From: a virus
Virus record (IMG/VR): IMGVR_UViG_3300045049_000061
Span: 1-37,169 of that record
Reading direction: 5' to 3' (one strand)
Length of the DNA: 37,169 nucleotides
Shown here: one piece after another, positions 21,313-34,464 of the stretch
How positions within the stretch are numbered: position 1 is the first letter of the stretch
Layout of the letters: every line of letters begins with the position of its first letter
Notes under the pieces: generated by a model
Databases searched by the model: none
What the model was told of the DNA's origin: nothing
The model's input: only the letters and a program-made list of their open reading frames with translations
Position numbers and translations under genes: made by a program

Positions 21313-21569
21313 TCTTGTGCCGATAAGACAGGTAGGCCGTGATAGGTAACTTGGCTTATGTTTATAGCACCTTCACTCTGGCGTAAAATCAAATCAGCTA
21401 AAGATTGATAGTCCTTTCGCGCCAGCCTCACGCATGGAGGAGTACGGTTAGCCTTAGCCATGTAATCACGCATCTCGCGCCATTTCCTTAAAAGTTCCCT
21501 CTGACTTTTGCTTTTGGTCAGGCGATACGCGGACAAATTGAAGCTATGAATAACCGGCTTACTAGCCAT
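21309..21569 (-). CDS. Hypothetical basic protein, 86 aa
   Basis: GGAGG lies 7 bases before ATG 21569, which fixes the start; the upstream extension to 21758 is in the frame opposite the SWDxAP gene. The sequence is basic and helical (SKSQRELLRKWREMRDYMAK), with a C-terminal part (CVRLARKDYQSLADLILRQ). It is directly upstream of and coupled to the winged-helix gene and may act with it. Confidence 0.6.
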   Translation of the reverse strand: MASKPVIHSFNLSAYRLTKSKSQRELLRKWREMRDYMAKANRTPPCVRLARKDYQSLADLILRQSEGAINISQVTYHGLPVLSAQE

Positions 21570-21747
21570 CACGTACCTCCAAGGACAGAGTCCAGCCGAT
21601 TGCGATTGCTGGACAGTTTCTACCGCTGGTCGGCATCCACATGCTTTCACGACGAACAGGGCGATGCTCCCAATACCAAACCGCACCATCGCTGTCCTTC
21701 GTTCGATATCTCGCCCAGTTAGGAGCATCATCCCAAGAATCAGACAT
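21562..21747 (-). CDS. Small SWDxAP-family protein, copy 1, 61 aa
   Basis: The N-terminus MSDSWDDAPNWARYRTKDSD then GAVWYWEHRP is the widespread W.DAP.WA...D..G.WYW pattern of small phage proteins of unknown function. A second copy is at 19535-19753. TGAGG lies 5 bases upstream of ATG 21747. The last codons overlap the next gene by 8 bases. Confidence 0.7.
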   Translation of the reverse strand: MSDSWDDAPNWARYRTKDSDGAVWYWEHRPVRRESMWMPTSGRNCPAIAIGWTLSLEVRDG

Positions 21748-22646: not shown

Positions 22647-23201
22647 TTAGCCTTTGATTGGTTGGTCTTGAAAGCGCCAATCTGTTTGGTCCCATGCGCC
22701 CTTTCCGATGTTGCATGCGGCACACAAAATTTGCAGATTGTCCAGATTTAGCTCAAGTTCTGGATATTTTGATCGTGGCCTTATGTGGTCCACATGCAAA
22801 ACCACTCCATCATCCCTTGACGCACCACAACACTGGCATCGCTGCCCGTATGCAGCAAAAGCCCGATATCTAAGCTCCTTCCACTGACGACTATCATAAA
22901 AATTCGGGTCCTTTGGCTCGCTGACTTTTATGAATGTCTGTTCCTTGGATGATTCATAACCTCTCGACTTCTTTACCTTTGCAAGAAGTACATTTTTACC
23001 AAGATCTGACATCAAATCCTGGAAACGCCTTAGAAGAACTTGACGGCGACCGGTGTATTCCCATCCATACTTTTCACAAACCATTCGAGCCAAATCAGTT
23101 GCTTTCTTTTTCCCAGGCTGGAATCCCATATCTCGTGAAACAGCAGCAAATAAAAAACTCCATTTAACTCGCTTACCATCTAGAACTATTGCCTTTTTCA
23201 C
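22647..23201 (-). CDS. HNH endonuclease, 184 aa
   Basis: The C-terminal half is a canonical HNH: CxxC at 122-125, H136-x-D138-H139 in LHVDHIRPRSK, N155, and CxxC at 160-163 (ILCAACN). The N-terminal 90 residues look helical and DNA-binding. GTG 23201 with GGAGG 8 bases upstream. Free-standing HNH nucleases are common in phages as homing enzymes; it lies far from terL, so a role in cos cleavage is unlikely. Confidence 0.85.
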   Translation of the reverse strand: MKKAIVLDGKRVKWSFLFAAVSRDMGFQPGKKKATDLARMVCEKYGWEYTGRRQVLLRRFQDLMSDLGKNVLLAKVKKSRGYESSKEQTFIKVSEPKDPNFYDSRQWKELRYRAFAAYGQRCQCCGASRDDGVVLHVDHIRPRSKYPELELNLDNLQILCAACNIGKGAWDQTDWRFQDQPIKG

Positions 23202-23646: not shown

Positions 23647-23755
23647 GACGTTTACCCTTCTCAAACGCATCTGAGACAGCAATCATGATAAAGAACGTCG
23701 CCCATATGGGGTGACCGCTCCATGCGCATAGAATGGCTAGGATGATCCAGATCAT
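23639..23755 (-). CDS. Small TM peptide, 38 aa
   Basis: Begins MIWIILAILCAWSGHPIWAT and is hydrophobic for residues 1-30, ending with KGKRHG. Its ATG overlaps the stop of the cassette protein (ATGA), and its end overlaps the start of the next gene. A typical tiny phage membrane protein; function unknown. Confidence 0.5.
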   Translation of the reverse strand: MIWIILAILCAWSGHPIWATFFIMIAVSDAFEKGKRHG

Positions 23756-24198
23756 GGCTGCCCGTCTCCTTTCTCCGACAGCGCGGCGATGAGCATTGCC
23801 TTAGCCTCTGGAATGGCGCGAGGCCAATTCTTGTTATAGCGCTCAAACTCTTCAAGGCTGGAGCACTTACGCGCCTCTTGCGCATAAATGTACTTTGCTA
23901 GGCGCTCCACCATCTCATCCGTTACCTCCACGCGGGGATGGGGTGGGTTGCGCGGCACACCGGCGTGTCGGCACGCGACCGGCCTGTATCTCCAAAGCCA
24001 GTCGAAAGCTTTTTTCGGGATTGATACCATTTCCGACGCCTCACCCTCGCGCTGCGCGGCTAGGTGGGCGTCGATGGCGTCGGCTGCCGAACCGTATGCT
24101 TCGCGTAGAGGTGGGATAAGGTCATGCTGTTTCTCCAACCTACGCATCCAATCCCGCACGTCCTCCAACGTCATCGCTTTCTTCGTCGTGTCGGTCAT
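23752..24198 (-). CDS. Mosaic cassette protein, leftward copy, 148 aa
   Basis: Protein blocks in order: MTDTTKKAMT (1-10), AIDAHLAAQREGE, PPHPRVEVTDEMV, and a terminal AALSEKG. The same blocks occur in the 360-residue protein on the other strand (28415-29497) and the DNA under them is nearly identical. Between blocks the sequences are unrelated. ATG 24198 overlaps the HTH stop (ATGA). This family of shuffled early proteins is widespread in phages; its biochemical role is not known. Confidence 0.75.
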   Translation of the reverse strand: MTDTTKKAMTLEDVRDWMRRLEKQHDLIPPLREAYGSAADAIDAHLAAQREGEASEMVSIPKKAFDWLWRYRPVACRHAGVPRNPPHPRVEVTDEMVERLAKYIYAQEARKCSSLEEFERYNKNWPRAIPEAKAMLIAALSEKGDGQP

Positions 24199-24199
24199 G
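23768..24199 (-). repeat. Cassette repeat blocks, leftward arm (inverted relative to 28414-29487)
   Basis: Four blocks here match the plus-strand gene in inverted orientation: 24170-24199 (30/30 with 28414-28443), 24040-24078 (38/39 with 28601-28639), 23907-23946 (39/40 with 28985-29024) and 23768-23787 (18/20 with 29468-29487). Counts are by eye. Confidence 0.85.
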
Positions 24200-24407
24200 G
24201 CTTTTTCCTCCCATGGCGAGCGCATTTCTTGTGCAAGGCCACGATCTTTAAGGCAACCGTCCCCCCCGGCTCCTTGATGCGGCCGGATTCGATATCATGC
24301 GCCGTGCCTTGGCTAATCCCCAGCATTTCACCAATCTCACGGTATGTTAGGCCGGACTCATGGATATCCTCCATCATGCTCGACCAGGAAATAGTCCCTA
24401 TATTCAT
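24195..24407 (-). CDS. XRE/Cro-like HTH protein, 70 aa
   Basis: Residues 20-41 form a clear helix-turn-helix (LTYREIGEMLGISQGTAHDI followed by ES). The rest is a short basic tail (CARHGRKKP). It is the first gene leftward of the divergent promoters, the usual place of a Cro-like repressor that senses its own operators between 24408 and 24532. Without a CI-type partner or integrase, it may simply control early expression. Confidence 0.75.
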   Translation of the reverse strand: MNIGTISWSSMMEDIHESGLTYREIGEMLGISQGTAHDIESGRIKEPGGTVALKIVALHKKCARHGRKKP

Positions 24408-24434
24408 AGCGTCTCTCTTCGGCAGTTCATGGAT

Positions 24435-24463
24435 ACGATATCCCGAAAATAAATGTTCGTCAA
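24435..24463 (-). promoter_or_regulatory. Leftward sigma70 promoter
   Basis: Minus strand: -35 TTGACG (24463-24458), 17-base spacer, -10 TATCGT (24440-24435). It would drive the HTH gene starting at 24407 and the whole leftward operon. Found by eye; 4 of 6 match at -10. Confidence 0.55.
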
Positions 24464-24482
24464 GTCGAAATTAGTGCTTGAC
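24456..24482. promoter_or_regulatory. Possible operator between the two -35 boxes
   Basis: GTCAAG (24459-24464) and CTTGAC (24477-24482) form an inverted repeat with a 12-base gap, and TTCG-TCAAGT-CGAA (24456-24469) is a smaller palindrome. The -35 boxes themselves contribute to the symmetry, so an operator for the 70-residue HTH protein is likely but not certain. Confidence 0.4.
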
Positions 24483-24507
24483 ACGGAAGTTCGGGGTGAC
24501 GTACAGT
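24478..24507 (+). promoter_or_regulatory. Rightward sigma70 promoter
   Basis: Plus strand: perfect -35 TTGACA (24478-24483), 18-base spacer, -10 TACAGT (24502-24507). It lies 25 bases before the 49-residue ORF at 24533 and should drive the rightward early operon. Confidence 0.65.
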
Positions 24508-24532
24508 TAATCCAACGAAACAGGAAAACGCC

Positions 24533-24682
24533 ATGAACACGAACGAATCTATCCGCCCGATCCGCTACGACCTGATCGACACCAAGACCAATGGCATCGT
24601 CAAGTCTTACGCCAATCGTGATGCAGCAATGCGCGCAGCCGATAAGAAAGACGCGCGGCCAACATTGAGGAAACAAACATGA
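24533..24682 (+). CDS. Small protein at the head of the rightward operon, 49 aa
   Basis: The sequence begins MNTNESIRPIRYDLIDTKTN and has YANRDAAMRAADKKD, a short beta/alpha peptide of a type seen in many phages (RYDLID.KTN.V..Y..R..A.RAADKKD). The stop overlaps the next ATG (ATGA). AGGA precedes the start. It was too short for simple ORF callers. Confidence 0.6.
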   Translation: MNTNESIRPIRYDLIDTKTNGIVKSYANRDAAMRAADKKDARPTLRKQT

Positions 24683-25416
24683 ACGATTTCGCTGTCTCTG
24701 AATCACTGGCCCGCAAAGTGCTGGAAACAGTTGACGCTGGATTGAGTCACGGACTGGGCGAACCCGTGCCGGGGAAAATGTGCGTAGAGGCCGCTGTGTG
24801 CTACGCCATGGGCCTTCCGCATTCTGATCGTCCAACATGCGTCGGCGAAGCCGTTCGCCGCTTCAAAATTAGGCTAAATGACTCTAGCTGGTCATCCAGA
24901 ACCGCTCGCGCTAACGGGATGCGAAAACTGGCAATCGCGCAGCTAGGTAGTAACTCGATCAACCAAAGGGCATTTGCCCGCATCGTTACAGAGCAAACAA
25001 TCCGCCAGATTATTCCCATCGCGCTTCGTTCTGCGGCCAAGTGTGTTCCTAGCCATGCCGAAGCGCTGGAGAGAGCAGCTAAATGGTGCGAGCAGGAAGG
25101 GACCGAAGAGGCGACAAGAAATGCTCGTGATGTAGCAAGAGATGCCGACGACGCCGCCGCCGCCGCATGCGCAGCCACATCCGCCGCCGCGCGCGCAGTC
25201 GCATTCGCCGATGAAGCCACAACCAAAGCCAAAGCCGGATGCGACGCCGCCGCCGCCGACGCAGTCGCCGAGGCCGCATCCTTGTCGGCCGACGCCGCAT
25301 GCGCATCCCGCGATGACGTTCTCAATAAGACCGCCGAAATCGCCTTGCAGGCGCTTATCGAACTCAATTCACCGGGTTGTGAGTACTTGTTTTTGACTGA
25401 TGTTAAAGTCGCCTAA
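24679..25416 (+). CDS. Conserved phage protein (LETVDAGL) with Ala-rich tail, 245 aa
   Basis: The N-terminal 140 residues follow a pattern common in phage and prophage proteins: LETVDAGLSHGLGEPVPGKM, CVEAAVCYAMGLPH, RFKIRLNDSSWSS and KLAIAQLGS. Function unknown. Residues about 150-215 are Ala/Asp repeats encoded by GCC/GAC triplets (25140-25310), likely expandable by slippage. The last part returns to normal complexity (EIALQALIELNSPGC). It is co-translated with the 49-residue gene. Confidence 0.75.
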   Translation: MNDFAVSESLARKVLETVDAGLSHGLGEPVPGKMCVEAAVCYAMGLPHSDRPTCVGEAVRRFKIRLNDSSWSSRTARANGMRKLAIAQLGSNSINQRAFARIVTEQTIRQIIPIALRSAAKCVPSHAEALERAAKWCEQEGTEEATRNARDVARDADDAAAAACAATSAAARAVAFADEATTKAKAGCDAAAADAVAEAASLSADAACASRDDVLNKTAEIALQALIELNSPGCEYLFLTDVKVA

Positions 25417-25446
25417 CCATCCACGGCCAGCATTGAGGAAATGAAG

Positions 25447-25638
25447 ATGAACCGTTATGCACAACAAGCCGTTACACCACTGCTTTCCGATTCGGAAAAC
25501 GCCATTCTGCAATTGCTTGCTAACGACGCCGACCGCTCGGTTGTCATCGAGGCATGCGAGCGCTTGAAAGAGCGCACCGCAGGACGTGACGTGTCGGTTC
25601 TTCGCGAAGTGCTAGGAATCCTTCGCCATTGGGACTGA
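25447..25638 (+). CDS. Hypothetical helical protein, 63 aa
   Basis: I chose ATG 25447 because GAGG lies 8 bases upstream; an ATG two codons earlier (25441) is closer. The sequence is helical and charged (SENAILQLLANDADRSVVIE, ACERLKERTAGRDVSVLREV). It resembles small phage regulators, but nothing specific is visible. Confidence 0.55.
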   Translation: MNRYAQQAVTPLLSDSENAILQLLANDADRSVVIEACERLKERTAGRDVSVLREVLGILRHWD

Positions 25639-25647
25639 CCGCCAGCC

Positions 25648-25674
25648 CATGCCTTTGCCATCGGCGAGGGCATG
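25648..25674 (+). other. Hairpin in the 25639-25712 gap
   Basis: CATGCC (25648-25653) pairs with GGCATG (25669-25674) and encloses GCC-ATC-GGC. It lies in the leader of the gene starting at 25713 and could tune its translation or stabilise mRNA. No T tract, so it is not a canonical terminator. Confidence 0.35.
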
Positions 25675-25712
25675 CACGGGCGATCCGTCTCGAAGCGCAA
25701 CCGAGAGATACC

Positions 25713-26120
25713 ATGAGCAATGAACACGTACATCCGACCATGCAGCAAGCACTTGGTACCTTGGCCGGGGCTTGTGCAGCTCACAACGCATCGAAAGCAG
25801 TCAGCGCATTGGACCAGGCGCGCGAGATCATCGCTACTGACAAGAAGCGCATCCGGGAGCTTGAATCAGCGAACGCCAATCTTCGTGCGCACGTGCGGCA
25901 TCTCAACTCGATCATCGACGACATAGCACCTACTGACTACGCAATGGTTTTGGAAGGCGACATCGAAGAGACGCCTATTCCGCAGGAAGTGATGATTCCT
26001 TCGATGATCGATCTTATGCGCGACATCGATGTGCGGCTGAAACTCGAAAAGATCGTGGAGCGCAAGTACATGCAGTACGTGCGGCGCTTGAACGATGATG
26101 CGAAAAGGGGAGAAGAGTGA
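25713..26120 (+). CDS. Coiled-coil protein, 135 aa
   Basis: The central part (KAVSALDQAREIIATDKKRI, RELESANANLRAHVRHLNSI) is a strong coiled coil. The C-terminus is helical and charged. The in-frame extension to 25629 has no SD. It ends as TGATG into the next gene. Function unknown. Confidence 0.6.
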   Translation: MSNEHVHPTMQQALGTLAGACAAHNASKAVSALDQAREIIATDKKRIRELESANANLRAHVRHLNSIIDDIAPTDYAMVLEGDIEETPIPQEVMIPSMIDLMRDIDVRLKLEKIVERKYMQYVRRLNDDAKRGEE

Positions 26121-26293
26121 TGCCTAATTGGTATGAACGGGCCGAACAAGAGCTTGAGCGCGATTTGGAAGAAGGTCGCATGACACTTAAGGAATTCAAC
26201 AAGGCCATGCGTGAATTACGCATGGAACTTGAAGAGAGTGCTGCACGCGCTTCTCAGGAAGCCTATGACAGGGAGATGGATCGTGGTTGGTAA
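26120..26293 (+). CDS. Small acidic helical protein, 57 aa
   Basis: The sequence begins MPNWYERAEQELERDLEEGR, continues with MTLKEFNKAMRELRMELEES and ends in MDRGW, fully helical, coupled by TGATG. Similar short proteins occur in early operons of Gram-negative phages, without known function. Confidence 0.55.
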   Translation: MPNWYERAEQELERDLEEGRMTLKEFNKAMRELRMELEESAARASQEAYDREMDRGW

Positions 26294-26411
26294 TCTTCGT
26301 CACTATCTCAACCGCATGACCGTCACAGATCGCGGCGAGCAGATCGCCATATTCACAGTTGGAGTGATCGTCGGCATTGGTCTGTGCATTTGCTTGCTTC
26401 TTATACCATGA
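26283..26411 (+). CDS. Small TM protein with GTG start, 42 aa
   Basis: GTG 26283 has GGGAG 7 bases upstream; no SD precedes the inner ATG (26316). After a basic N-terminus (GNLRHYLNRMTVTDRGEQI) there is a single TM (IFTVGVIVGIGLCICLLLIP). The stop overlaps the next ATG (ATGA). Confidence 0.5.
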   Translation: MVGNLRHYLNRMTVTDRGEQIAIFTVGVIVGIGLCICLLLIP

Positions 26412-26644
26412 AGATTAATGCAAATCCTCCTTACGACAAAGAAGGTAGTTACCAAGCTGCAGAGGTACGCTGGTATAGAAAGCACGGAAACTTTCAAGAA
26501 CGCATTCGTATTGATGGGCATGGATTCCCATACGTGGTAGGAGATCAGTTTTGGAACTGCGTTCGAACGACGGAATACATAGAAAGGGATATGCGAAAAG
26601 CATTGGGAATTGTTAATTACTCCTATCCATTTCTATCGAAATGA
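26408..26644 (+). CDS. Hypothetical protein, 78 aa
   Basis: Begins MKINANPPYDKEGSYQAAEV, with many aromatic residues (RIDGHGFPYVVGDQFWNCVR). It is a small alpha/beta protein with no recognised family, coupled by ATGA overlaps to both neighbours. Confidence 0.55.
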   Translation: MKINANPPYDKEGSYQAAEVRWYRKHGNFQERIRIDGHGFPYVVGDQFWNCVRTTEYIERDMRKALGIVNYSYPFLSK

Positions 26645-26745
26645 ACACTAAGCCGCCGAGCAGTTGGCCGTTCTGGCGCTTCATCATGGCCTGCATTGTG
26701 CTGGAAGTGTCATTTACAGCTCTTTTACATTGGTTCCTTCATTGA
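26641..26745 (+). CDS. Very small TM peptide, 34 aa
   Basis: MNTKPPSSWPFWRFIMACIV then LEVSFTALLHWFLH: one hydrophobic helix from about residue 10. ATGA overlap with the upstream gene. Likely a real coupled micro-protein, function unknown. Confidence 0.45.
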   Translation: MNTKPPSSWPFWRFIMACIVLEVSFTALLHWFLH

Positions 26746-26759
26746 TCTCGGGATGTGAG

Positions 26760-26915
26760 ATGGACATGTGCGATCTTAGCGACGACGAACTAATCAAGCA
26801 TCTCGAAGAACTTTTGAGGGCGAGGCGCGAAAAGGTGCATAACAATGGCCCTGCCCGCTGGATGGCAACTGAGTGGAGGCATGCACGTGAGCAACAACAA
26901 TCTAGCAACGATTGA
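26760..26915 (+). CDS. Small helical protein before bet, 51 aa
   Basis: MDMCDLSDDELIKHLEELLR then ARREKVHNNGPARWMATEWR, helical, charged. It overlaps the annealase start by 29 bases. An ATG two codons later is possible. Function unknown. Confidence 0.5.
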   Translation: MDMCDLSDDELIKHLEELLRARREKVHNNGPARWMATEWRHAREQQQSSND

Positions 26916-27726
26916 ACAGGCCGGGGTTCTGGCTGCGATGGCATTGCATTACGGTATGAACAAGGATGCCTTTGTTCAGACAATTAAGAAAACCGTCATG
27001 CCAAGCAACATTGATGTATCCAATGAGCAATTAGCCGCGTTCTGTCTTGTCGCCAAACAATACAATCTAAATCCGTTCACCAAGGAAATATTCGCTTTTC
27101 CTAGTCGAGGCGGCATTCAGCCTGTTGTATCCATTGACGGATGGATGAAGCTCATCAATTCACATCCAGAATTTGATGGCATGGCTTTTGAAGATCGTTT
27201 GGATGATGAAAGTCGTCTAGTCTCAGTGACATGCAAGATGTATCGTAAGAATCGCACGCATCCCGTTGAGGTGACTGAGTACATGTCGGAATGCCGTCGT
27301 GGCACAGATACATGGAAGCAATGGCCAGCACGCATGCTTCGCCATAAAGCTGCCATCCAGGCGGCGCGTTATGCCTTTAGCTTCGCCGGTATCGTTGAGC
27401 CTGACGAGGCTGAGCGTGCTAACGATATTCATGCTGAACAGCGCATTCCTGATGTCTTGATTGAGGATGAGCGAAAAAAACGCTGCGACGATGCGTATGA
27501 GCAATATAAGGAATCAGTTGATCTCATAAAGAGAAAAATAAGGGAATGGGATGAGGCTCAGGTTGAAGACTGTCTGTATATTGTGGATGAAACGTGGGAT
27601 GGCATCCCCATTAGTGGTCAGCAGGATCTTTGGCTTGCTCCGACAAAGGGAGGCATATTTACGACGCATGAGAGAGACGTCATACGGACTAAGCTTCCCA
27701 GGCATGATGAAGACTCTTCAGAATGA
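26887..27726 (+). CDS. bet: RecT/Bet-family single-strand annealing protein, 279 aa
   Basis: Strong match in pattern to phage recombination protein Bet: SNNNLATIEQAGVLAAMA, LVAKQYNLNPFTKEIFAFP, GGIQPVVSIDGWMKLINSHP, then WPARMLRHKAAIQAARYAFSF and GIVEPDEAER. It anneals complementary single strands and drives exonuclease-dependent recombination. GTG 26887 has GGAGG 7 bases before it and gives the N-terminus typical of the family; an ATG two codons earlier is too close. The C-terminus is variable and helical. Notably, no Exo partner is encoded next to it. Confidence 0.93.
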   Translation: MSNNNLATIEQAGVLAAMALHYGMNKDAFVQTIKKTVMPSNIDVSNEQLAAFCLVAKQYNLNPFTKEIFAFPSRGGIQPVVSIDGWMKLINSHPEFDGMAFEDRLDDESRLVSVTCKMYRKNRTHPVEVTEYMSECRRGTDTWKQWPARMLRHKAAIQAARYAFSFAGIVEPDEAERANDIHAEQRIPDVLIEDERKKRCDDAYEQYKESVDLIKRKIREWDEAQVEDCLYIVDETWDGIPISGQQDLWLAPTKGGIFTTHERDVIRTKLPRHDEDSSE

Positions 27727-28118
27727 ACGCCTGGGAAGAACGTGGTTCAGAACCGATGACGCGCGCGCAGCAGAAATTGCTGAATGCCGCGTGTGGCGAT
27801 CTTGAGCAGATCAATTGGCATGGATTTCGCTTCTCAAAAGAGGATTGGCGACACTTCCTATCTGGCGTAATTCTTGGCTGCAGGATTGTGCCTAGCGTCG
27901 ATATGGGCGAAGGCCCTCCCGGCTTCATTCATATGTCCAGATCTAGCCTTGAGCTAACAAAGAGCAATGCTACAGATGCAATCACCATGGCTTTCTACAT
28001 AGGCGACGATCCGGCATCGCAAAACCTCACATGTAAGCCGGTAGAATGGTGCCATAAGGTCAAGCTTGCGCGAGGGATCAGTGAATCAGATGACGAATTG
28101 GCGGAGCGCTACAAGTGA
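27723..28118 (+). CDS. ninB: NinB-like recombination protein, 131 aa
   Basis: The region DLEQINWHGFRFSKEDWRHF, then LSGVILGCRIVPSV...PGFIHMSRSS, follows the layout of lambda NinB (Orf family), which binds single-stranded DNA and SSB and can replace RecFOR in loading recombinases. ATG 27723 overlaps the bet stop (ATGA); an inner ATG at 27756 is also possible. Between an annealase and a Ref-like nuclease it forms a recombination cassette. Confidence 0.8.
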   Translation: MNAWEERGSEPMTRAQQKLLNAACGDLEQINWHGFRFSKEDWRHFLSGVILGCRIVPSVDMGEGPPGFIHMSRSSLELTKSNATDAITMAFYIGDDPASQNLTCKPVEWCHKVKLARGISESDDELAERYK

Positions 28119-28387
28119 CCACGGAAGTTGAGAAGGCATATATGGATCGCGTAGCCAAGCTCCCCTGCGCTATCTGTGGCGCTTACGGCGTCCAGCTACA
28201 TCATGCCAGGGAAGGACAGGGCTTGTCACAACGCGCCGAGAACTGGCTAGTTATACCGCTATGTGAGGCTTGCCATACTGGTCCTCGCGGTATCCATGGC
28301 GACAGGTCGATGTGGAAGATAAAGAAGTGGGACGAGATGGATGCACTCGCGGATACCATCAAGTCTGTATGGATAAACAAGGGTTAA
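28115..28387 (+). CDS. Ref-like RecA-dependent nuclease, 90 aa
   Basis: CAIC at 18-21, LHHAREGQG at 28-36, LCEAC at 49-53 and GPRGIHGDR at 56-64 match the Ref family of phage P1 (RecA-dependent nuclease, an HNH-like zinc fold). It is shorter than P1 Ref and lacks its long basic N-terminus. Ref cuts DNA where RecA pairs a strand and stimulates recombination. GTG 28115 overlaps the ninB stop (GTGA). Confidence 0.85.
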   Translation: MTTEVEKAYMDRVAKLPCAICGAYGVQLHHAREGQGLSQRAENWLVIPLCEACHTGPRGIHGDRSMWKIKKWDEMDALADTIKSVWINKG

Positions 28388-28413
28388 AGCCGAATTGGCT
28401 AGGAGACATGCGG

Positions 28414-28443
28414 CATGACCGACACGACGAAGAAAGCGATGAC
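28414..28443 (+). repeat. Cassette block 1 (30 bp)
   Basis: Encodes the start MTDTTKKAMT of the 360-residue protein and is identical to minus-strand 24170-24199, which encodes the start of the 148-residue protein. Confidence 0.9.
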
Positions 28444-29497
28444 TGAGGACTTGTGCCACCTCATCTACGTGCAACTGCAATTCGATTGGCGAGGCGAAAC
28501 CGATCTGCCGGCGGATTTCATGCAACGCTTAGATGCTCGTGGCTGGATCGCTGAGGGCGAAAATAACGGCGAGTTCTACATTACCGATGAGGGCGAGGAA
28601 GCCATCGACGCCCACCTATCCGCGCAGCGCGAGGGTGAGATCGTCGTTACTAAAGACGACGCCGGCCAGATCGTTGCCGTCACCCGACAGGATGAAGAGA
28701 GGCGCATCCTTTCTGTTGTTGCGGAGAATGCGCCGCGCGCCATCACCCTAAGCGAAGCCCTGAATACTCTCTCAGACTTCGCTGCTAACGGCGGTACATT
28801 GCATGGTGATTATGCCTATGAGCTGCATGCGGCGGTGGATAAGATGGCGCAGCGCGAGGGTGAGGCGGTGGCATTCACATCTATTGACGATCTGGAACGA
28901 CTGCACGATGACGGCGGCGGCATTGGACGTGTCGAGGTAAATTCTCGCGCGACGGCACATCGAAACGTTCCTCTCTACATCTCACCACCCCATCCCCGCG
29001 TGGAGGTGACGGATGAGATGGTGGATCGTGCGATGACGGCTTACGAAGAATTTCTATGTAATGGCGACGAAGCAGATTATGAAGCCATGCGCGCCGCGAT
29101 CCAGGCGGCTATAAACGGCAATGCGTTCTTTGACTCAAACATTGAGGAGCGCATGCATGAAGATGCCAAGAACGCATGCCATCACTGTGGCGAAAGTGGT
29201 CACAAGGATGACGCAAAGCCACGGGCAGAGCCTTATGCGTACATATACGAATACGATACTTACGCCGGCGTTCATCGCGAATTTTCACCGCTTACATGGA
29301 ATGGATTGAAGGCGGTTAGAACTGTTCCTGTCTACACCGCTCAGCCCTCTCCCCTCGTGGATGTGACGGATGAGATGATTCACTTTCTGCAAAAATGGTC
29401 TGCCGATGGCTGCCTTCAAACTTTTGAGGATAGACAGCGTTTTAGAAAAGAGTGCGCCGCCCTCGAAGCCGTGCTATCGGAGAAAGGTCATGTGTGA
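28415..29497 (+). CDS. Mosaic cassette protein, rightward copy, 360 aa
   Basis: Blocks in order: MTDTTKKAMT, AIDAHLSAQREGE, AQREGEAVAF, PPHPRVEVTDEMV, a CxxC/H motif (CHHCGESGH), a second unit ending SPLVDVTDEMI, and VLSEKGHV. Two units of about 80 residues each run from an AV/AY segment through VP(L/V)Y to V(E/D)VTDEM. The unrelated stretches between blocks show cassette exchange. SD AGGAGA is 8 bases from ATG 28415. The function is unknown; such mosaic proteins sit next to recombination genes in many phages. Confidence 0.75.
   Translation: MTDTTKKAMTEDLCHLIYVQLQFDWRGETDLPADFMQRLDARGWIAEGENNGEFYITDEGEEAIDAHLSAQREGEIVVTKDDAGQIVAVTRQDEERRILSVVAENAPRAITLSEALNTLSDFAANGGTLHGDYAYELHAAVDKMAQREGEAVAFTSIDDLERLHDDGGGIGRVEVNSRATAHRNVPLYISPPHPRVEVTDEMVDRAMTAYEEFLCNGDEADYEAMRAAIQAAINGNAFFDSNIEERMHEDAKNACHHCGESGHKDDAKPRAEPYAYIYEYDTYAGVHREFSPLTWNGLKAVRTVPVYTAQPSPLVDVTDEMIHFLQKWSADGCLQTFEDRQRFRKECAALEAVLSEKGHV
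28601..28639 (+). repeat. Cassette block 2 (39 bp), plus a partial copy at 28847-28864
   Basis: Matches minus-strand 24040-24078 at 38 of 39 positions; its last 18 bases recur exactly at 28847-28864 in the same gene. Confidence 0.85.
28985..29024 (+). repeat. Cassette block 3 (40 bp), with a diverged copy at 29351-29377
   Basis: Matches minus-strand 23907-23946 at 39 of 40 positions; 29351-29377 matches its second part at 25 of 27. All encode VTDEM. Confidence 0.85.
29468..29487 (+). repeat. Cassette block 4 (20 bp)
   Basis: Matches minus-strand 23768-23787 at 18 of 20 positions; encodes the terminal LSEKG of both mosaic proteins. Confidence 0.65.
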
Positions 29498-29798
29498 TTA
29501 TCAGGGTTATGAATTTGGTGCCGGCCGCTATCCAGATTCCGTCTGCATAGATGGGCGTTTGTTTGATGCCGATAACTGTGATGGCGATGGCAACCTCTAT
29601 GAGCCCATGGACCATCTGCCTTGCCCGATGTGCCATCCGCTTGAAGCGATCGAATATTGGTTCGACTACAACGGCGGCGAAGATGAGCCTAACGCGCTGC
29701 GATGCGCCTTAAGCCTCGTGAACGATATACGCAAGAACAGAGGCATTACCGTTCGCATTAAACAAACTCAGGTCAAATATTTGCTGGGAAATACTTAA
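29490..29798 (+). CDS. Hypothetical protein with CPMC motif, 102 aa
   Basis: ATG 29490 overlaps the end of the mosaic gene by 8 bases and has AAAGG upstream. The sequence begins MCDYQGYEFGAGRYPDSVCI, contains a CPMC pair near residues 49-52 and acidic DNCDGDGN, so a metal-binding fold is plausible. The rest is helical. No family known. Confidence 0.6.
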   Translation: MCDYQGYEFGAGRYPDSVCIDGRLFDADNCDGDGNLYEPMDHLPCPMCHPLEAIEYWFDYNGGEDEPNALRCALSLVNDIRKNRGITVRIKQTQVKYLLGNT

Positions 29799-29835
29799 TC
29801 AAGAACGCACATCGTAAAAACAGGAAGGTGAGTCT

Positions 29836-30135
29836 ATGAAGCACACCCCCGAAGCACTGAAAGACCTTGCTTGGAGACTTAAGCACTCCATCGGCGGTCG
29901 TTATAAAGACGAAGCCGCTAACGTGCTCCGCGATATCGCAGATGAGATGGAGGCAACGAACTATCCGGAAATTCCGGAAGGTTGGAAGTTGGTGCCGGTT
30001 GAGCCAACCGATAAAATGCTCAATCATTTCAGCGGTACTAATTTCCGAGATCTAAATCCGAGCAAAATGGCTGAGGAAATCGCTGCCTATTCCAGAATGC
30101 TCGCCGCCGCGCCGTCGCCGAAGGGAAATAAATGA
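29836..30135 (+). CDS. Small cassette-family protein, 99 aa
   Basis: It has a helical N-terminus, then PEIPEGWKLVPVEPTDKMLN and a terminal EIAAYSRMLAAAPSPKG, the PEGW.LVPVEPT.EM pattern found in many phage early proteins. VEPTDKM and the end resemble VEVTDEM...AMLIAALSEKG of the mosaic proteins, so it is a third, shorter member. SD GGAAGG precedes ATG 29836. Confidence 0.7.
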   Translation: MKHTPEALKDLAWRLKHSIGGRYKDEAANVLRDIADEMEATNYPEIPEGWKLVPVEPTDKMLNHFSGTNFRDLNPSKMAEEIAAYSRMLAAAPSPKGNK

Positions 30136-30177
30136 AATATCTTTATATGTGAAACGATAACCTCAAAGGAGGTTTAT

Positions 30178-30861
30178 ATGCGTAAGTGGATATGCGCGCT
30201 TGCATGCGCGCCTTTCGCTGTATGTGCACATGACATCCATCCCGAAATTGGCATCGGCTTCAATCATTATGCTCCTCAATCGGATGGGGTATGGTATCAG
30301 TTAGGGATGCCTCATAAACTTAATCTTCAAGGTCATGCCTATACGATAGGCCTTACCGGATCTATATGGCGTGAATATCCATATGGGATCGACTGGCACA
30401 TCGATTATGTAAATCTAGGCCATATAAGATCCACGTGCCTATGCACTCCATTAGACTCAAATTATGACACACGAACTCATTCATTAGTACCTCATCCAAT
30501 CCCGATGCCTAATGCTGAGTATGATGGGGTGGGTGGTGCACAAGGGGTGAAGTTCTCGGCTAATGGTTATCGATTCTTCGGCGGATGGAAGATGGGGATA
30601 ATTTCCGGTCTTTTCCCTTATCGCCCTCAATGGCGTGAAAGCGTTTATGGATGGGCGCTCTCTTATGATCAACCAAGAATAGACGGAATCCATCGAACGC
30701 CATTAACGTGGCGTCTCGGGGAGATGGTAGGGATTTCTATGCAGCACGGCGCCATACTCCTATCCATGGAGCATTATTGGTTGCCTACTCAATTCGATGA
30801 TAAGCATGTGCCCGCACTCTGGACGCAGGCTGATATGTTTATGGTCAGCTATCAGTTTTGA
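30178..30861 (+). CDS. Secreted outer-membrane beta-barrel-like protein, 227 aa
   Basis: A Sec signal peptide is clear (MRKWICALACAPFAVCA, cleavage before HD). The mature part is Trp/Tyr/Gly-rich with alternating strands (EIGIGFNHYAP, VWYQLGMPHK, YTIGLTGSIW) and ends in Phe after alternating hydrophobics (MFMVSYQF), the C-terminal signature used by Bam for outer-membrane barrels. It is the last gene of the rightward operon with strong AAAGGAGG upstream. Such phage proteins can block receptors or change the surface (lambda Lom as a precedent), which remains inference. Confidence 0.7.
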   Translation: MRKWICALACAPFAVCAHDIHPEIGIGFNHYAPQSDGVWYQLGMPHKLNLQGHAYTIGLTGSIWREYPYGIDWHIDYVNLGHIRSTCLCTPLDSNYDTRTHSLVPHPIPMPNAEYDGVGGAQGVKFSANGYRFFGGWKMGIISGLFPYRPQWRESVYGWALSYDQPRIDGIHRTPLTWRLGEMVGISMQHGAILLSMEHYWLPTQFDDKHVPALWTQADMFMVSYQF

Positions 30862-31315
30862 TTATTGGGTCATGCTCTTCCTGATATGGTCTCTTATCCA
30901 AATCAGGAGGAATGGATTTGCCACCCTTATCATATCTTGCCTGCTTGATAGGCGTCCTTAGTGCCTTGGTATAAGCATCCCATGAAAATCCGTCAGCTTC
31001 CACCGCCGCCTTCTCCGCTCCCGTAGCGAAGGTATGGGCCACTGTATACGGAAGTCCCAGCTCATCCATGAGGCATTTTTCTACGGTCTCATGGATGAGC
31101 AGATAACGCCATGGCTGCATAACCTTCCCGTCAAGACTAAGGCGATCCGGGAAGGTGGAATTGATGTAAACACGTGGATGATTCCAGTCCTTGGAATAAC
31201 CGCCAAGATAAGGAACCCAGTATTGATGGTTAATATCAATCTTTGAGGCTAGCGCCTTGATGGCTTCGTCAATATCCGTCCTAGAAATGGCCTTGTCAGG
31301 AATGCCAGTACTCAT
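30845..31315 (-). CDS. Putative zincin-like phage protein (HETVE), 156 aa
   Basis: YLLIHETVEKCLMDELGLPY at residues 71-90 contains HExxE, with H94 or E101 as possible further ligands; the layout IHE.VE...M.ELG..Y..AH..A...E is seen in several phage hypothetical proteins. A metalloprotease role is possible but the motif is HExxE and not HExxH, so activity is uncertain. ATG 31315 overlaps the Rz1 stop (ATGA). It converges with the beta-barrel gene, sharing 17 bases. Confidence 0.55.
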   Translation of the reverse strand: MSTGIPDKAISRTDIDEAIKALASKIDINHQYWVPYLGGYSKDWNHPRVYINSTFPDRLSLDGKVMQPWRYLLIHETVEKCLMDELGLPYTVAHTFATGAEKAAVEADGFSWDAYTKALRTPIKQARYDKGGKSIPPDLDKRPYQEEHDPIIKTDS

Positions 31316-31509
31316 GGCTTCTTCCATCCACATTTGGACTGCCCATAGAGATCATGGGCCAATATCTCTTTAGCCGTGGCATCTGTCAGGACATCCCCTT
31401 GATGAACAAGAATGGCCTTAAAGCCTGGACAAGGTTCAACCTTTGGGCATCCAGTCACGCAGCTCGCCAGCAGCGGAAGAAGGATCAGCGGTAATAACTG
31501 ATTGCGCAT
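31312..31509 (-). CDS. Rz1: Outer-membrane spanin lipoprotein (Rz1-like), 65 aa
   Basis: An N-terminal hydrophobic segment ends in a lipobox LLAS-C with the acceptor C17, after which comes a short periplasmic domain. The gene begins inside Rz in a different frame and ends beyond it, the classical overlapping arrangement. It would fuse outer and inner membranes at lysis with the i-spanin. GGAGC precedes ATG 31509. Confidence 0.85.
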   Translation of the reverse strand: MRNQLLPLILLPLLASCVTGCPKVEPCPGFKAILVHQGDVLTDATAKEILAHDLYGQSKCGWKKP

Positions 31510-31768
31510 TGAATGGCTCCTGCGGCCCCACAGGCGGCGGCACAGTGACTTTAGGTAGCGGAAGGCTATTAACCTTGGCGTCGATGGTTTGACGCAAATT
31601 TAGATCGTTTTTAGTAGCCTGTAGAGTCGCCTCGGCATCTTCCTCGCGAGCCTCAGATTTTCCCTCTGACCGACCTTTAAGGAGCGCCAAGATATAGGCG
31701 CTCCCAAAGGCGACAATAACGGCTATGATCACGCCAACCCATTCCTTTATTTTGCTAAAAATGAACAT
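31436..31768 (-). CDS. Rz: Inner-membrane spanin (Rz-like), 110 aa
   Basis: An N-terminal TM (WVGVIIAVIVAFGSAYILAL) is followed by a charged helical/coiled-coil region (GRSEGKSEAREEDAEATLQA) and a Pro-rich tail. Partner of the lipoprotein in the overlapping frame. AAGGAGG is well placed upstream of ATG 31768. Confidence 0.85.
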   Translation of the reverse strand: MFIFSKIKEWVGVIIAVIVAFGSAYILALLKGRSEGKSEAREEDAEATLQATKNDLNLRQTIDAKVNSLPLPKVTVPPPVGPQEPFNAQSVITADPSSAAGELRDWMPKG

Positions 31769-31777
31769 GATACCTCC

Positions 31778-31894
31778 TTAATGAGGTGGAGGGGTAATGA
31801 TGATGATTGTATAAGGATCACTCACCGTTTGAAGATAGGCGGCAGCCTCATCAAGCGATGAGAATGTCTTTACATCGTGCACCGTATCGCTCAT
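31778..31894 (-). CDS. Small protein in the lysis cassette, 38 aa
   Basis: MSDTVHDVKTFSSLDEAAAY then LQTVSDPYTIIIITPPPH. ATG 31894 overlaps the stop of the upstream membrane gene (ATGA), and its end carries the SD of Rz. A short alpha/beta peptide; function unknown. Too short for common ORF callers. Confidence 0.55.
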   Translation of the reverse strand: MSDTVHDVKTFSSLDEAAAYLQTVSDPYTIIIITPPPH

Positions 31895-32196
31895 TTTGTA
31901 TCCTTTGGTTTCAGTTGAGGGGCAATGACGTATATTGCATTTAGATAATCCTGCATACGATCCATGCGCTGCTGCATGCTAAAATAGGCCATGCTCCCTA
32001 AAATGCTGGCCGCAATGCTTATTGCTAGCATAACAGCACAGCACACGCTGGCAATATAAACGCCAATGCCGCCTGCATGGACGTTTATATGAGCTTCGCT
32101 ACTTCCAGACCCAGACTGCAATTTCTTGCTCACTTCGCCAAGCTTATCGACGGCCCTGGCAAGGCGCTCTACTTCTTCCCCTGTAAGATGGTCCAT
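31891..32196 (-). CDS. Membrane protein of the lysis cassette, 101 aa
   Basis: The N-terminal coil (LTGEEVERLARAVDKLGEVS) leads into one long hydrophobic segment (IYIASVCCAVMLAISIAASI-like, residues about 46-72), then a short charged tail. ATG 32196 has GAGG 5 bases away; the longer frame from 32226 does not. It may act as antiholin or a holin partner. No holin family is certain. Confidence 0.55.
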   Translation of the reverse strand: MDHLTGEEVERLARAVDKLGEVSKKLQSGSGSSEAHINVHAGGIGVYIASVCCAVMLAISIAASILGSMAYFSMQQRMDRMQDYLNAIYVIAPQLKPKDTK

Positions 32197-32203
32197 ATCA
32201 TCC

Positions 32204-32488
32204 TCAGCCCGGCTTAATGAAGGCAAGTACGCTATCTAGACGGCGGTGAACTTCTTTGACGCTATCTTTAACCTCATCCACAGCAGATCTTACAGTTGCT
32301 AAGATTTTTTCCAGATCGTCCTTGTTATGAAAGCTAGTGAGCATCTGTTCCTTGAATGCATCGTGATCTTTACGCATAGCTTTGGCGTCGCTGCGAATAT
32401 CACGAATAATCGCCCCCATAAGAGCAACTACAATCGATAGCGCCGCCACAGCAAGCCATTGCCATACATCAGGAGGCATATTGTTCAT
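32204..32488 (-). CDS. Holin-like or XhlA-like protein, 94 aa
   Basis: One N-terminal TM (WQWLAVAALSIVVALMGAII), then a charged coiled coil (DDLEKILATVRSAVDEVKDS). The layout resembles XhlA/holin accessory proteins in which a coil contacts endolysin or holin. It overlaps the 84-residue holin candidate (ATGA). Confidence 0.6.
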   Translation of the reverse strand: MNNMPPDVWQWLAVAALSIVVALMGAIIRDIRSDAKAMRKDHDAFKEQMLTSFHNKDDLEKILATVRSAVDEVKDSVKEVHRRLDSVLAFIKPG

Positions 32489-32739
32489 GGCGGATTCCTG
32501 CGTTGCTGAATCAATCGCCCGATCATACCGGCCACTAGCGTAACCTGGGCAATATGATGCGCTTCGCCATTGGAGATGTAAGCCTTTAAACTATCGGGTA
32601 GATCAATCCATCCGTGTTGCAATGCGTCTGGAATTTCCAAAATAATACCCGAAACCGCGCTAAACCATAGTGACAACATTTTCCAGGCATGACGCCACTC
32701 CGGAATAAGCCATCGTTCTGTAAATGTCTTAATACTCAT
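32485..32739 (-). CDS. Holin candidate, 84 aa
   Basis: Two hydrophobic segments, about residues 20-38 (MLSLWFSAVSGIILEI) and 62-76 (AQVTLVAGMIGRLI), on a short protein starting by ATGA overlap with the endolysin stop. RHAWKMLSLWFSAVSGI is a pattern of phage holins with WRHAW N-termini. It would time lysis by forming pores or depolarising the membrane. Confidence 0.7.
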   Translation of the reverse strand: MSIKTFTERWLIPEWRHAWKMLSLWFSAVSGIILEIPDALQHGWIDLPDSLKAYISNGEAHHIAQVTLVAGMIGRLIQQRRNPP

Positions 32740-33182
32740 GGATCGCCTCCAAGAAACACGCGCCTCTCTTCATCTCTTCGATTTACAAGACCTGATAACA
32801 CATGCCCATTTGCTATATTCCATAGCGGGAACTGGTCAGCCGCGCCATGAATATCGCCGGCATTCCATAGTCGAAGCAACGTACTCCCAAGGAATGCATG
32901 AATACCCTCGTTGTATGCGAATGATAAACATGCACCTATCTGATTTGGCGTAGAACCCTCCGGAATCTTCCATTGAAATGCGTTAGCCAGGTCATTGAGG
33001 CGCCTAGCCAAATCAGTATCGGCTTGTTCCTGCGTCCATACTGTATCTTTGGTAATTAATGGGCCCGTTGCTCCATAGCCAATAGTCCATGGATCTGCAC
33101 CTGTAGCCGGGTCTGGATAAGCCTCCAAAGAGCATCCCTCGAACTTCTTGATTAGGCATGAAGCTATATCGATCGCATTCAT
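32736..33182 (-). CDS. Endolysin, T4-lysozyme type (GH24), 148 aa
   Basis: The catalytic triad is recognisable: E15 in KKFEGC, D24 in AYPDP and T33 in PWTIGYG, with the family end SGLVNRRDEERRVFLGG. It hydrolyses the beta-1,4 bond between MurNAc and GlcNAc. No signal peptide or SAR is visible, so release needs a holin; genes for it follow directly. Confidence 0.92.
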   Translation of the reverse strand: MNAIDIASCLIKKFEGCSLEAYPDPATGADPWTIGYGATGPLITKDTVWTQEQADTDLARRLNDLANAFQWKIPEGSTPNQIGACLSFAYNEGIHAFLGSTLLRLWNAGDIHGAADQFPLWNIANGHVLSGLVNRRDEERRVFLGGDP

Positions 33183-33183
33183 A

Positions 33184-33633
33184 TCATGGACCCGAGTAAG
33201 TGAGATCGATACTCACGGAGTTTGAGGTTGTAACGACATTTCCACTTACGGAATCGGTGACTGTGCAGGTAGCTGACCCTGTTGATTCAATATTAACGTT
33301 ATTGACAGAAGCGCTAAAAACAGTCGTTGCCGCCGTTGGCGAGACGGCAGAAATAGTATTCCCAGAACTTGTTGTCACATTCCAATGATAAGTGTAGCTG
33401 CCAGAGCCATTTACAGCAGTAGTGGTGCATGAGCTACTCAGACATGTTCCTGCCGTAGTTCGCGTACCATTAACGCTAGTAGGACTAAGTGATGCTTGCA
33501 AAAATCCAAATATTGACCATGATGAACCTGTCCAACGCTGACCCTGCGCAATCGCTTGCCAAACAGAGCCTGTCCATCGCCTAAAAATGGTTATAGGTGT
33601 CCAGCTTGATCCTGTCCATCGCGAAAAAGTCAT
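33184..33633 (-). CDS. Tail fibre-associated protein with RWTGSSW repeats, 149 aa
   Basis: Three tandem repeats start it: FSRWTGSSWTPIT, FRRWTGSVWQAIA, GQRWTGSSWSIFG. After that comes an Ig-like/beta-rich domain (ASLSPTSVNGTRTTAG...). Arrays of this type occur at fibre tips or in tail-associated proteins. The gene begins 3 bases after the fibre stop. Role inferred: part of receptor recognition. Confidence 0.65.
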   Translation of the reverse strand: MTFSRWTGSSWTPITIFRRWTGSVWQAIAQGQRWTGSSWSIFGFLQASLSPTSVNGTRTTAGTCLSSSCTTTAVNGSGSYTYHWNVTTSSGNTISAVSPTAATTVFSASVNNVNIESTGSATCTVTDSVSGNVVTTSNSVSIDLTYSGP

Positions 33634-33636
33634 ATA

Positions 33637-34464
33637 TCACCAAAACCAAAGATCGCCAGTTGCGATGGCTGTCGGCTGGGATGATTGTACGAAAACATGT
33701 GGCTGCGTAATACCTCCATATGAATACGATCCGTTTGCATTAAGTGTTCCGGCGACGCTTACCGATGAAGAGAAACCCCATGTATTGGAAGACGTACAGG
33801 TAAGAGATGGCACTTGATATCCAAAACCCATTGCATAGTTGGCATTCCCGGCTCCATCACTAAACTGAATGACGCCATGGACAGTATTGTCAACTTTGCT
33901 ATAAATTTGCTTATAAGCAGATGTCCAACCCGTTCCATTGCTTGAACGAGTTGCTTGATAAATGATTTGGTCGCTGTTTGCATCGCTAAAATTAAACGAT
34001 CCCATAACCAAAAAGTTGCCGGAAGACGTTCCAAGTGAACCAGCATTTACGGTAAAACTGCCGCTAAGCGTGCCGCCCGAAAGGGGCAGATAACTGGTTA
34101 ACGCCGTATTGACAAATTGGGTGCTGGCAACTTGCTGCGTATTAGTTCCAGGCGATGCAGTAGGCACTAATGGAATGCCGGTGAAATTAGGCGATGCTAA
34201 AGGGGCAAATCCAGCAATCTGCCCCATGGTCGCATAGTCCGTTGGCGCGACGCCATTAGAGGCGCCTGTATGACGAAAGCCGTTCATTGGCAGATTCGCC
34301 GTAGGAATGCCCTGACCGTCGCGTGTCAGGCAATTATTTAGCCCGTTACTGACAATGTCATTTGTATCCGCATCCATGCGTGATGCAGTGATAGGAATGC
34401 TGTTCGCAGCATCATTGATCCACGAATAGCCGCGCGTGAAAATGCCTGATCCGTTCCAGCCCAT
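33637..34464 (-). CDS. Tail fibre protein, 275 aa
   Basis: The middle has the fibre hallmarks YLPLSGGTLSGSFTVNAG and AGFAPLASPNFTGIPLVPTA; the C-terminus ends in SSQPTAIATGDLWFW. The N-terminus (RGYSWINDAANSIPITASRM) is like virion-anchoring domains of other phage fibres. Start ATG 34464 overlaps the transglycosylase stop (TAATG). It likely sets host range together with the downstream 149-residue gene. Confidence 0.8.
   Translation of the reverse strand: MGWNGSGIFTRGYSWINDAANSIPITASRMDADTNDIVSNGLNNCLTRDGQGIPTANLPMNGFRHTGASNGVAPTDYATMGQIAGFAPLASPNFTGIPLVPTASPGTNTQQVASTQFVNTALTSYLPLSGGTLSGSFTVNAGSLGTSSGNFLVMGSFNFSDANSDQIIYQATRSSNGTGWTSAYKQIYSKVDNTVHGVIQFSDGAGNANYAMGFGYQVPSLTCTSSNTWGFSSSVSVAGTLNANGSYSYGGITQPHVFVQSSQPTAIATGDLWFW

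Follow-up and report, generated by a model that had tools for sequence, protein, structure and literature searches.

In lambdoid phages the boundary (linker) sequences between genes are short stretches of conserved border DNA that act as exchange points. Here we describe two genes that carry sequences of this sort at their ends and others in their interior. The genes are found in the virus record IMGVR_UViG_3300045049_000061, whose 37,169 bases were analysed whole and are called the window below. One is part of a leftward operon (the left arm) and the other of a rightward operon (the right arm), and these cassette genes, as we term them, share four blocks of near-identical DNA (B1 to B4) that separate unrelated stretches, or modules (Table 1). 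B1, which starts at the start codon, and B4, which directly precedes the start codon of the next gene (29490 in the window), are of the linker kind; B2 and B3 are unlike linkers in lying inside the genes, so that protein parts are exchanged too. It is probable, in our judgement, that the two genes belong to one modular early-gene family in which recombination at the blocks swaps modules and genes and can invert the early segment, an annealase being the likely enzyme.

Several described systems are similar in part. Domain mosaicism of phage proteins (Smug et al. 2023, PMC10684548) is alike in that near-identical fragments occur in proteins otherwise unrelated, a sign of recent exchange. That survey stresses tail, lysis and other core functions and expects unseen mosaicism in proteins of unknown function, and a term search of its text found no description of multi-block early genes on opposed operons or of inversion. 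In the lambda PL-inversion assay of Rad52-like recombinases (PMC2327257; PMC3945230) inverted repeats likewise flank the early promoter region, and short or diverged homologies suffice, but the repeats there are artificial 800-bp inserts, whereas the present ones are natural blocks of 20-44 nt within coding sequence, which also delimit protein modules. The Ea22/exo-xis genes of lambda and its relatives (PMC8614690) also encode multi-domain early accessory proteins that gain and lose domains. The two window cassette proteins, however, have no Ead/Ea22 Pfam match at E values up to 0.1, and the sections of that paper that were covered do not describe block order or inverted pairing. Mosaic hypothetical proteins of Pseudomonas phages are a further case, one example being ORF32 of vB_PaeP_Tr60_Ab31 (HG798806.1 27230-28642), parts of which recur, with identities of up to 100%, in 83 phage records. 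It shares the module VTKNxxGxIVxVTRQD with the right cassette gene and lies near a single-stranded DNA-binding protein and an HNH gene, but has different blocks; it provides a cultured system for the same question. Within known phage mosaicism the present locus stands apart in that its exchange points are intragenic, are conserved as DNA across phages not otherwise related, and link a gene of one operon with a gene of the opposed one.

The initial annotation had described four blocks common to the two genes in inverted orientation, unrelated sequence between them, and smaller internal copies in the long gene. All of this was borne out. A repeat search recovered the blocks at 30/30, 40/42, 42/44 and 18/20 identical positions, the earlier counts being for these blocks with their limits set a little differently. 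The longest exact run shared by the left and right genes is 30 nt; random window pairs of equal size (n = 269) gave a mean of 9.4 and a maximum of 15. The modules between the blocks, by contrast, align between the two genes only as well as shuffled sequence does (z -1.0 to 1.7). Within the long gene, 28622-28639 recurs exactly (18/18) at 28847-28864 and 28951-29020 recurs at 76% identity at 29308-29377. The first of these internal copies, B2', forms the left edge of a module common to the window, G001 (97%) and G004 (95%), two of the relatives introduced below.

Table 1. Features of the two arms and of the interval between them (window coordinates)
Feature	Position	Strand	Evidence or remark
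Left-arm cassette gene, 148 amino acids, leftward operon: B1, module, B2, module, B3, module, B4	23752..24198	-	Open reading frame and block structure
Right-arm cassette gene, 360 amino acids, rightward operon: B1, module, B2, module, B2', module, B3, modules, B3', module, B4	28415..29497	+	Open reading frame and block structure
B1, left copy (start codon, MTDTTKKAMT)	24170..24199	-	30/30 with 28414-28443
B1, right copy	28414..28443	+	Identity starts one base 5' of ATG
B2, left copy (DAIDAHLAAQREGE)	24040..24081	-	40/42 with 28598-28639; junction site in G001 and G004 genes
B2, right copy (EAIDAHLSAQREGE)	28598..28639	+	40/42 with left copy
B2', short internal copy (AQREGEA)	28847..28864	+	18/18 with 28622-28639
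B3, left copy (PPHPRVEVTDEMVE)	23903..23946	-	42/44 with 28985-29028
B3, right copy	28985..29028	+	42/44 with left copy
B3', diverged internal copy (PSPLVDVTDEM)	29345..29377	+	Within 76% repeat 28951-29020 vs 29308-29377 (repeat D2)
B4, left copy (AALSEKG)	23768..23787	-	18/20 with 29468-29487
B4, right copy, followed by start codon of next gene	29468..29487	+	18/20 with left copy
Downstream gene, start codon overlapping end of right cassette gene	29490..29798	+	Different genes at this seam in relatives
Helix-turn-helix (HTH) protein, Cro/repressor-like, first gene of leftward operon, between arms	24195..24407	-	PF01381 2e-6, phrog_6223 1e-11
Leftward promoter-like site	24435..24463	-	Match to consensus only
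Rightward promoter-like site (TTGACA-18-TACAGT)	24478..24507	+	Match to consensus only
RecT/Bet single-strand annealing protein, between arms, rightward operon	26845..27726	+	PF03837 4e-26, phrog_252 4e-70, TIGR01913 1e-21
DUF968/HNH-like nuclease gene, directly upstream of right cassette gene	28115..28387	+	PF06147 2.7e-7
PVEPT gene (GWKLVPVEPT...AAAPSPKG), further right-arm mosaic gene	29836..30135	+	phrog_12449 2e-8, phrog_5913 2e-7

Scans of IMG/VR yielded a small set of phages with cassette genes: G001 (3300044740_000006), G002 (3300044684_000016), G004 (3300044693_000047), G005 (3300044684_000094), G006 (3300044694_000027), G009 (3300044719_000053), G010 (3300044656_000109), G011 (3300044684_000125) and the 60-kb phages G007 (3300044719_000075) and G008 (3300045744_000002). 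G006 is a close relative of the window and colinear with it over most of the genome. G001, G004 and G005 form a separate close group: identity among their structural proteins is mostly 95-99%, and little of their DNA matches that of the window except in the early region. G007 and G008 match each other genome-wide and the window in the cassette gene only, to which the matches of G010 with the window are likewise confined. No host or prophage copy was found in scans of bacterial genome contigs, and no close relatives of the cassette proteins were found in the phage collection save for one module. One right-gene module of the window is shared with mosaic hypothetical proteins from cultured phages of Pseudomonas and Stenotrophomonas.

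The family follows a single plan, namely MTDTTKKAMT, module, DAIDAHLxAQREGE, module, YTAPPHPRVEVTDEM, module, MRAALEAALSEKG, with blocks missing or altered in some members. Are there genes in which modules of the two window genes have been joined? In G001 (25685-26350) the window left-gene module (nt 1-159, 96.9%) leads into a right-gene module (94.4%), the join being inside B2; the window left gene and this gene thus make a mosaic protein pair, 96.9% identical over 159 nt and unrelated beyond. A G004 gene has the same left-gene module (94.0%) followed by a different right-gene module (95.0%), and this second module reappears at 97.1% in G001 (25203-25688), flanked by other ends. A fragment from G002 has a G006 module (83.7%) fused at B3 to a window module (88.5%), while G005 and G010 have their last module in common (189 nt at 96.8%), their other matches being few and short. 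Because the window left-gene module sits in right-arm genes of G001 and G004, modules can change arm. Module shuffling is real, and it is well supported by these recombinant genes. They also exclude the opposite outcome, checked in the relatives, of plain duplication with no alternative junctions.

When genes were painted in 40-nt windows the source switched at blocks. Internal ends of long matches fell in blocks in 24 cases out of 29, against 14.8 +/- 2.7 for random placement (maximum 23 in 2000 trials); the blocks had been defined by coverage from other genes, and this test shows block-delimited modules, not by itself recombination within blocks. Three of the five exceptions are at the G011 contig end or in G004-G011 matches starting there. 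The G007 and G008 cassettes have flanks that align at 77-80%, and within the cassette gene the blocks alone align. Between phage groups, blocks use the same codon for the same amino acid in 78-96% of cases, where codon use would lead one to expect 32-39%.

Mean block identity is 0.85-0.91 within genomes and 0.81-0.89 between genomes. Concerted evolution inside one genome, which we tested as an explanation, finds no clear support in these values. With block identity about the same within and between genomes, exchange is therefore seen mostly between phages, as from a shared pool, and exchange within one genome is possible. Active block-level shuffling, as first suggested for this locus, accordingly holds in part: there are alternative junctions in at least five relatives, but activity inside this phage is not evident, the blocks being about as alike between genomes as within one.

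The seams at B1 and B4 affect neighbouring genes as well, and neighbours both upstream and downstream vary there. The gene after B4 differs among the window, G001, G004 and G005, and in G005 the match of the O-like gene to G009 (91.5%) extends 13 nt into the cassette gene.

The opposite orientation of the cassette genes on two early operons means that recombination between them can invert the regulatory and recombination segment. G005 carries an inversion of that segment. Its early segment is reversed relative to the structural genes when compared with G001 and G004. In the comparison with G009, the G005 stretches 30277-36028 and 203-625 match the minus strand, whereas 1617-28847 matches the plus strand, and the switch intervals (28847-30277 and 625-1617) hold the G005 cassette genes 29608-30289 and 725-1261. 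G009 has an O-like gene, a cassette and the MSRRF-MPIVNK-terminase side in one place, and a DUF2815-like gene, a cassette and the PVEPT-lysis side in the other, whereas G005 has the reciprocal joins (O-like and DUF2815-like are names that we assume from reading the sequences). The G005 segment is thus reversed against all three of these phages with repeat-bearing cassettes at both junctions, as in DNA inversion at inverted repeats. Since the window, G001, G004, G006 and G009 all have the other orientation, that of G005 is probably derived. The longest exact inverted runs between the arm cassettes are 30 nt in the window, 34 in G005, 37 in G009 and 17 in G006. Flipping of the early-promoter segment, which the initial annotation had raised, can thus be accepted as an evolutionary event, with cassette genes in both switch intervals, but not as a reversible switch, there being one event in six comparable genomes. 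When open-licence papers were searched for an early region of a phage that is inverted in nature at repeats within coding sequence, the engineered lambda assay alone turned up. As a separate observation, the G005 cassette gene on the O-like side (29608-30289) has an in-frame stop codon at B3.

What enzyme could carry out such exchange? The window RecT/Bet protein scores above curated cut-offs (PF03837, 92.3 bits against 24; TIGR01913, 77.7 against 76.95). Annealases were also recognised in G004 (RecT) and in G001 and G006 (ERF), all of them encoded between the regulatory region and the right arm; the G005 annealase gene is cut by the contig end, and a YqaJ exonuclease was found in G004 only. 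Serine and tyrosine recombinases (PF00239, PF00589) were found in none of six phages (the window and five relatives) with models that were positive in 10 and 14 of 14 control genomes, and a dedicated invertase is therefore disfavoured. By published values, exact pairing requires at least 23-27 bp with Red-beta and 31-34 bp with RecA, and in lambda Red, RecT/RecE and Erf/Exo surpass RecA 20- to 100-fold in flipping an engineered promoter segment flanked by inverted repeats of 800 bp (PMC3945230); Red also joins sequences diverged by 22% well (PMC2327257). The exact runs of 30-37 nt exceed the Red-beta minimum. A phage single-strand annealing protein, which the initial annotation had also thought probable, would be the likeliest enzyme because of these pairing lengths, the lambda flipping data, the position of RecT/ERF between the regulatory region and the right arm, and the lack of a recombinase.

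We therefore propose the following scheme. The left and right genes would be members of one modular early phage gene family with the block order B1-B2-B3-B4, whose blocks are short, kept in a single reading frame and near-identical as DNA even in phages with little else in common. Through homologous or homeologous recombination at these blocks, modules, whole genes and neighbours are swapped between phages and between arms with the frame left intact, as the recombinant genes show. The divergent segment would be inverted via the cassette genes, a rearrangement seen in one relative for which this mechanism is presumed, and the annealase encoded between the arms would presumably carry out the exchange.

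Several observations weigh against this scheme. Blocks are not clearly more alike within one genome than between genomes, and G001 and G004 have no left-arm cassette gene. The inversion is represented by one linear metagenome contig (G005) that ends in or near the annealase gene, although each junction is contiguous, and the two switch intervals also contain further small genes. RecT and ERF models recognised no annealase in G009, G007, G008 or G010. Lastly, searches of Pfam, PHROGs and NCBIfam gave the window cassette proteins no usable functional family match.

The failure to recognise RecT or ERF in four phages with complete early regions fits the rival that comes closest, in which exchange at the blocks proceeds mainly through host RecA and not through a phage annealase. 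The exact inverted runs of G005 and G009 are at or above the length reported for RecA (PMC3945230). The longest run in the window, however, is above the requirement of Red-beta yet below the RecA minimum, and RecA is the poorer enzyme by far in the lambda inversion assay. We regard a main role for RecA as rather unlikely.

The blocks might alternatively be kept by selection on the protein, as linkers or for a common partner, with modules changing by illegitimate recombination anywhere and only in-frame products with intact linkers surviving. Such selection would likewise concentrate surviving boundaries at linkers, and the blocks do show conservation at the protein level, with part of their length in linkers between helices that are predicted to be unstructured. 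For the 148-residue protein the structure model is all-helical with modest confidence (predicted local distance difference test score, pLDDT, 67), B1 and the start of B3 being in unstructured stretches and B2 passing from a helix into one; the AlphaFold model of the 360-residue protein, made without alignment, is poor (pLDDT 49). What selection on protein does not predict is identical synonymous codons in unrelated phages, and the phage groups agree in their codons more than twice as often as expected. Match ends moreover coincide with blocks. We therefore think it unlikely as the whole explanation, though selection may still act alongside block recombination.

A still smaller chance is given to gene conversion driven by nucleases, in which HNH enzymes would cut near the blocks and repair would copy modules. 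HNH or DUF968 genes are close to both arms of the window (22647-23201 and 28115-28387), and the product of the latter is 96-97% identical as protein to its G001 and G006 counterparts, but neither a cut site nor a homing pattern was identified (HNH genes beside the G007, G008 and G010 cassettes were not sought). Simple duplication, with an ancestral gene copied inverted to the other arm and the blocks as the conserved remainder of two diverged copies, is more improbable again. Block order and frame are alike in both genes, and the internal copies in the long gene prove that duplication occurs; the modules, however, are unrelated rather than diverged, synonymous codons are kept in the blocks, and modules of both genes occur recombined elsewhere at 94-97%. 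Unrelated modules and recombinant genes together led us to reject it. Scarcely credible, finally, is a site-specific or shufflon-like system whose dedicated invertase flips the segment at the blocks: the blocks are inverted on the two arms and G005 is naturally inverted, but neither the window nor five relatives gave a serine or tyrosine recombinase, and the junctions lie not at a single short crossover site but at several unlike blocks (B1, B2, B2' and B3).

The cassette family probably consists of early accessory effectors. A Lar (PF14354) profile matches residues 10-68 of the G008 cassette protein, between B1 and B3 (32.7 bits against a cut-off of 28.6), and Lar is present again at the start of the G005 PVEPT gene, where a DUF551 protein is encoded next after the cassette; Lar was not found in the window. 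A PVEPT-like motif occurs also within a G010 cassette gene. Counter-defence would be the best guess at the function of some members, weakly suggested by the fact that the sole recognisable module in the family is this Lar-type restriction-alleviation domain.

As to the genome as a whole, the window has a 127-nt direct terminal repeat (1-127 and 37043-37169) and is therefore very probably a complete, circularly assembled phage genome. A terminal repeat is what the assembly of a genome that is circular or circularly permuted leaves behind; G008 has a direct one too, and that of G004 (60 nt) is located within its cassette gene. The interval between the arms, 24200-28413 if measured at the start-codon blocks, is occupied by the divergent early region, in which two promoter-like consensus sites were found against 0.7 expected. 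Despite this layout and the Cro/repressor-like HTH gene, no integrase or resolvase was found in the window, and the phage, which looks lambdoid in layout, may be virulent.

Some further repeats were observed in the early regions. Just 5' of gene starts the window has two copies of a leader (CGGCCARCATTGAGGAA...ATGAAC; 24656-24684 and 25424-25452, 86% identical), which recurs at 96-100% over 26-31 nt in the early regions of G001, G005, G006 and G009; it is possibly an additional exchange seam. Positions 24679-25416 encode an alanine-rich protein with many near-repeats of 12-30 nt in its DNA, which is 95% identical in G001; it has no family match. Short-period tandem repeats lie 5' of the conserved MSNEHV gene in G005 (34521-34762) and G001 (21446-21670), and also in G004 near 30.7-31.3 kb.

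A more speculative extension, which we hold to be doubtful, is that the block format is an evolved exchange platform: phages of a community would keep the blocks identical as DNA because this opens to them a common pool of counter-defence modules, and placement on opposite arms would let the early region exist as two inversion isomers, distinguished by the early operon that is read toward the late genes. The rapid turnover of unnamed early phage proteins is usually credited to unspecified mosaicism, whereas here the exchange points can be read directly. It becomes testable whether phages keep short DNA blocks as intragenic exchange points, and whether an annealase can rearrange a natural early region via repeats of some 30 nt in coding sequence. 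Judging from the Lar module, the functions traded in this way may be those of counter-defence.

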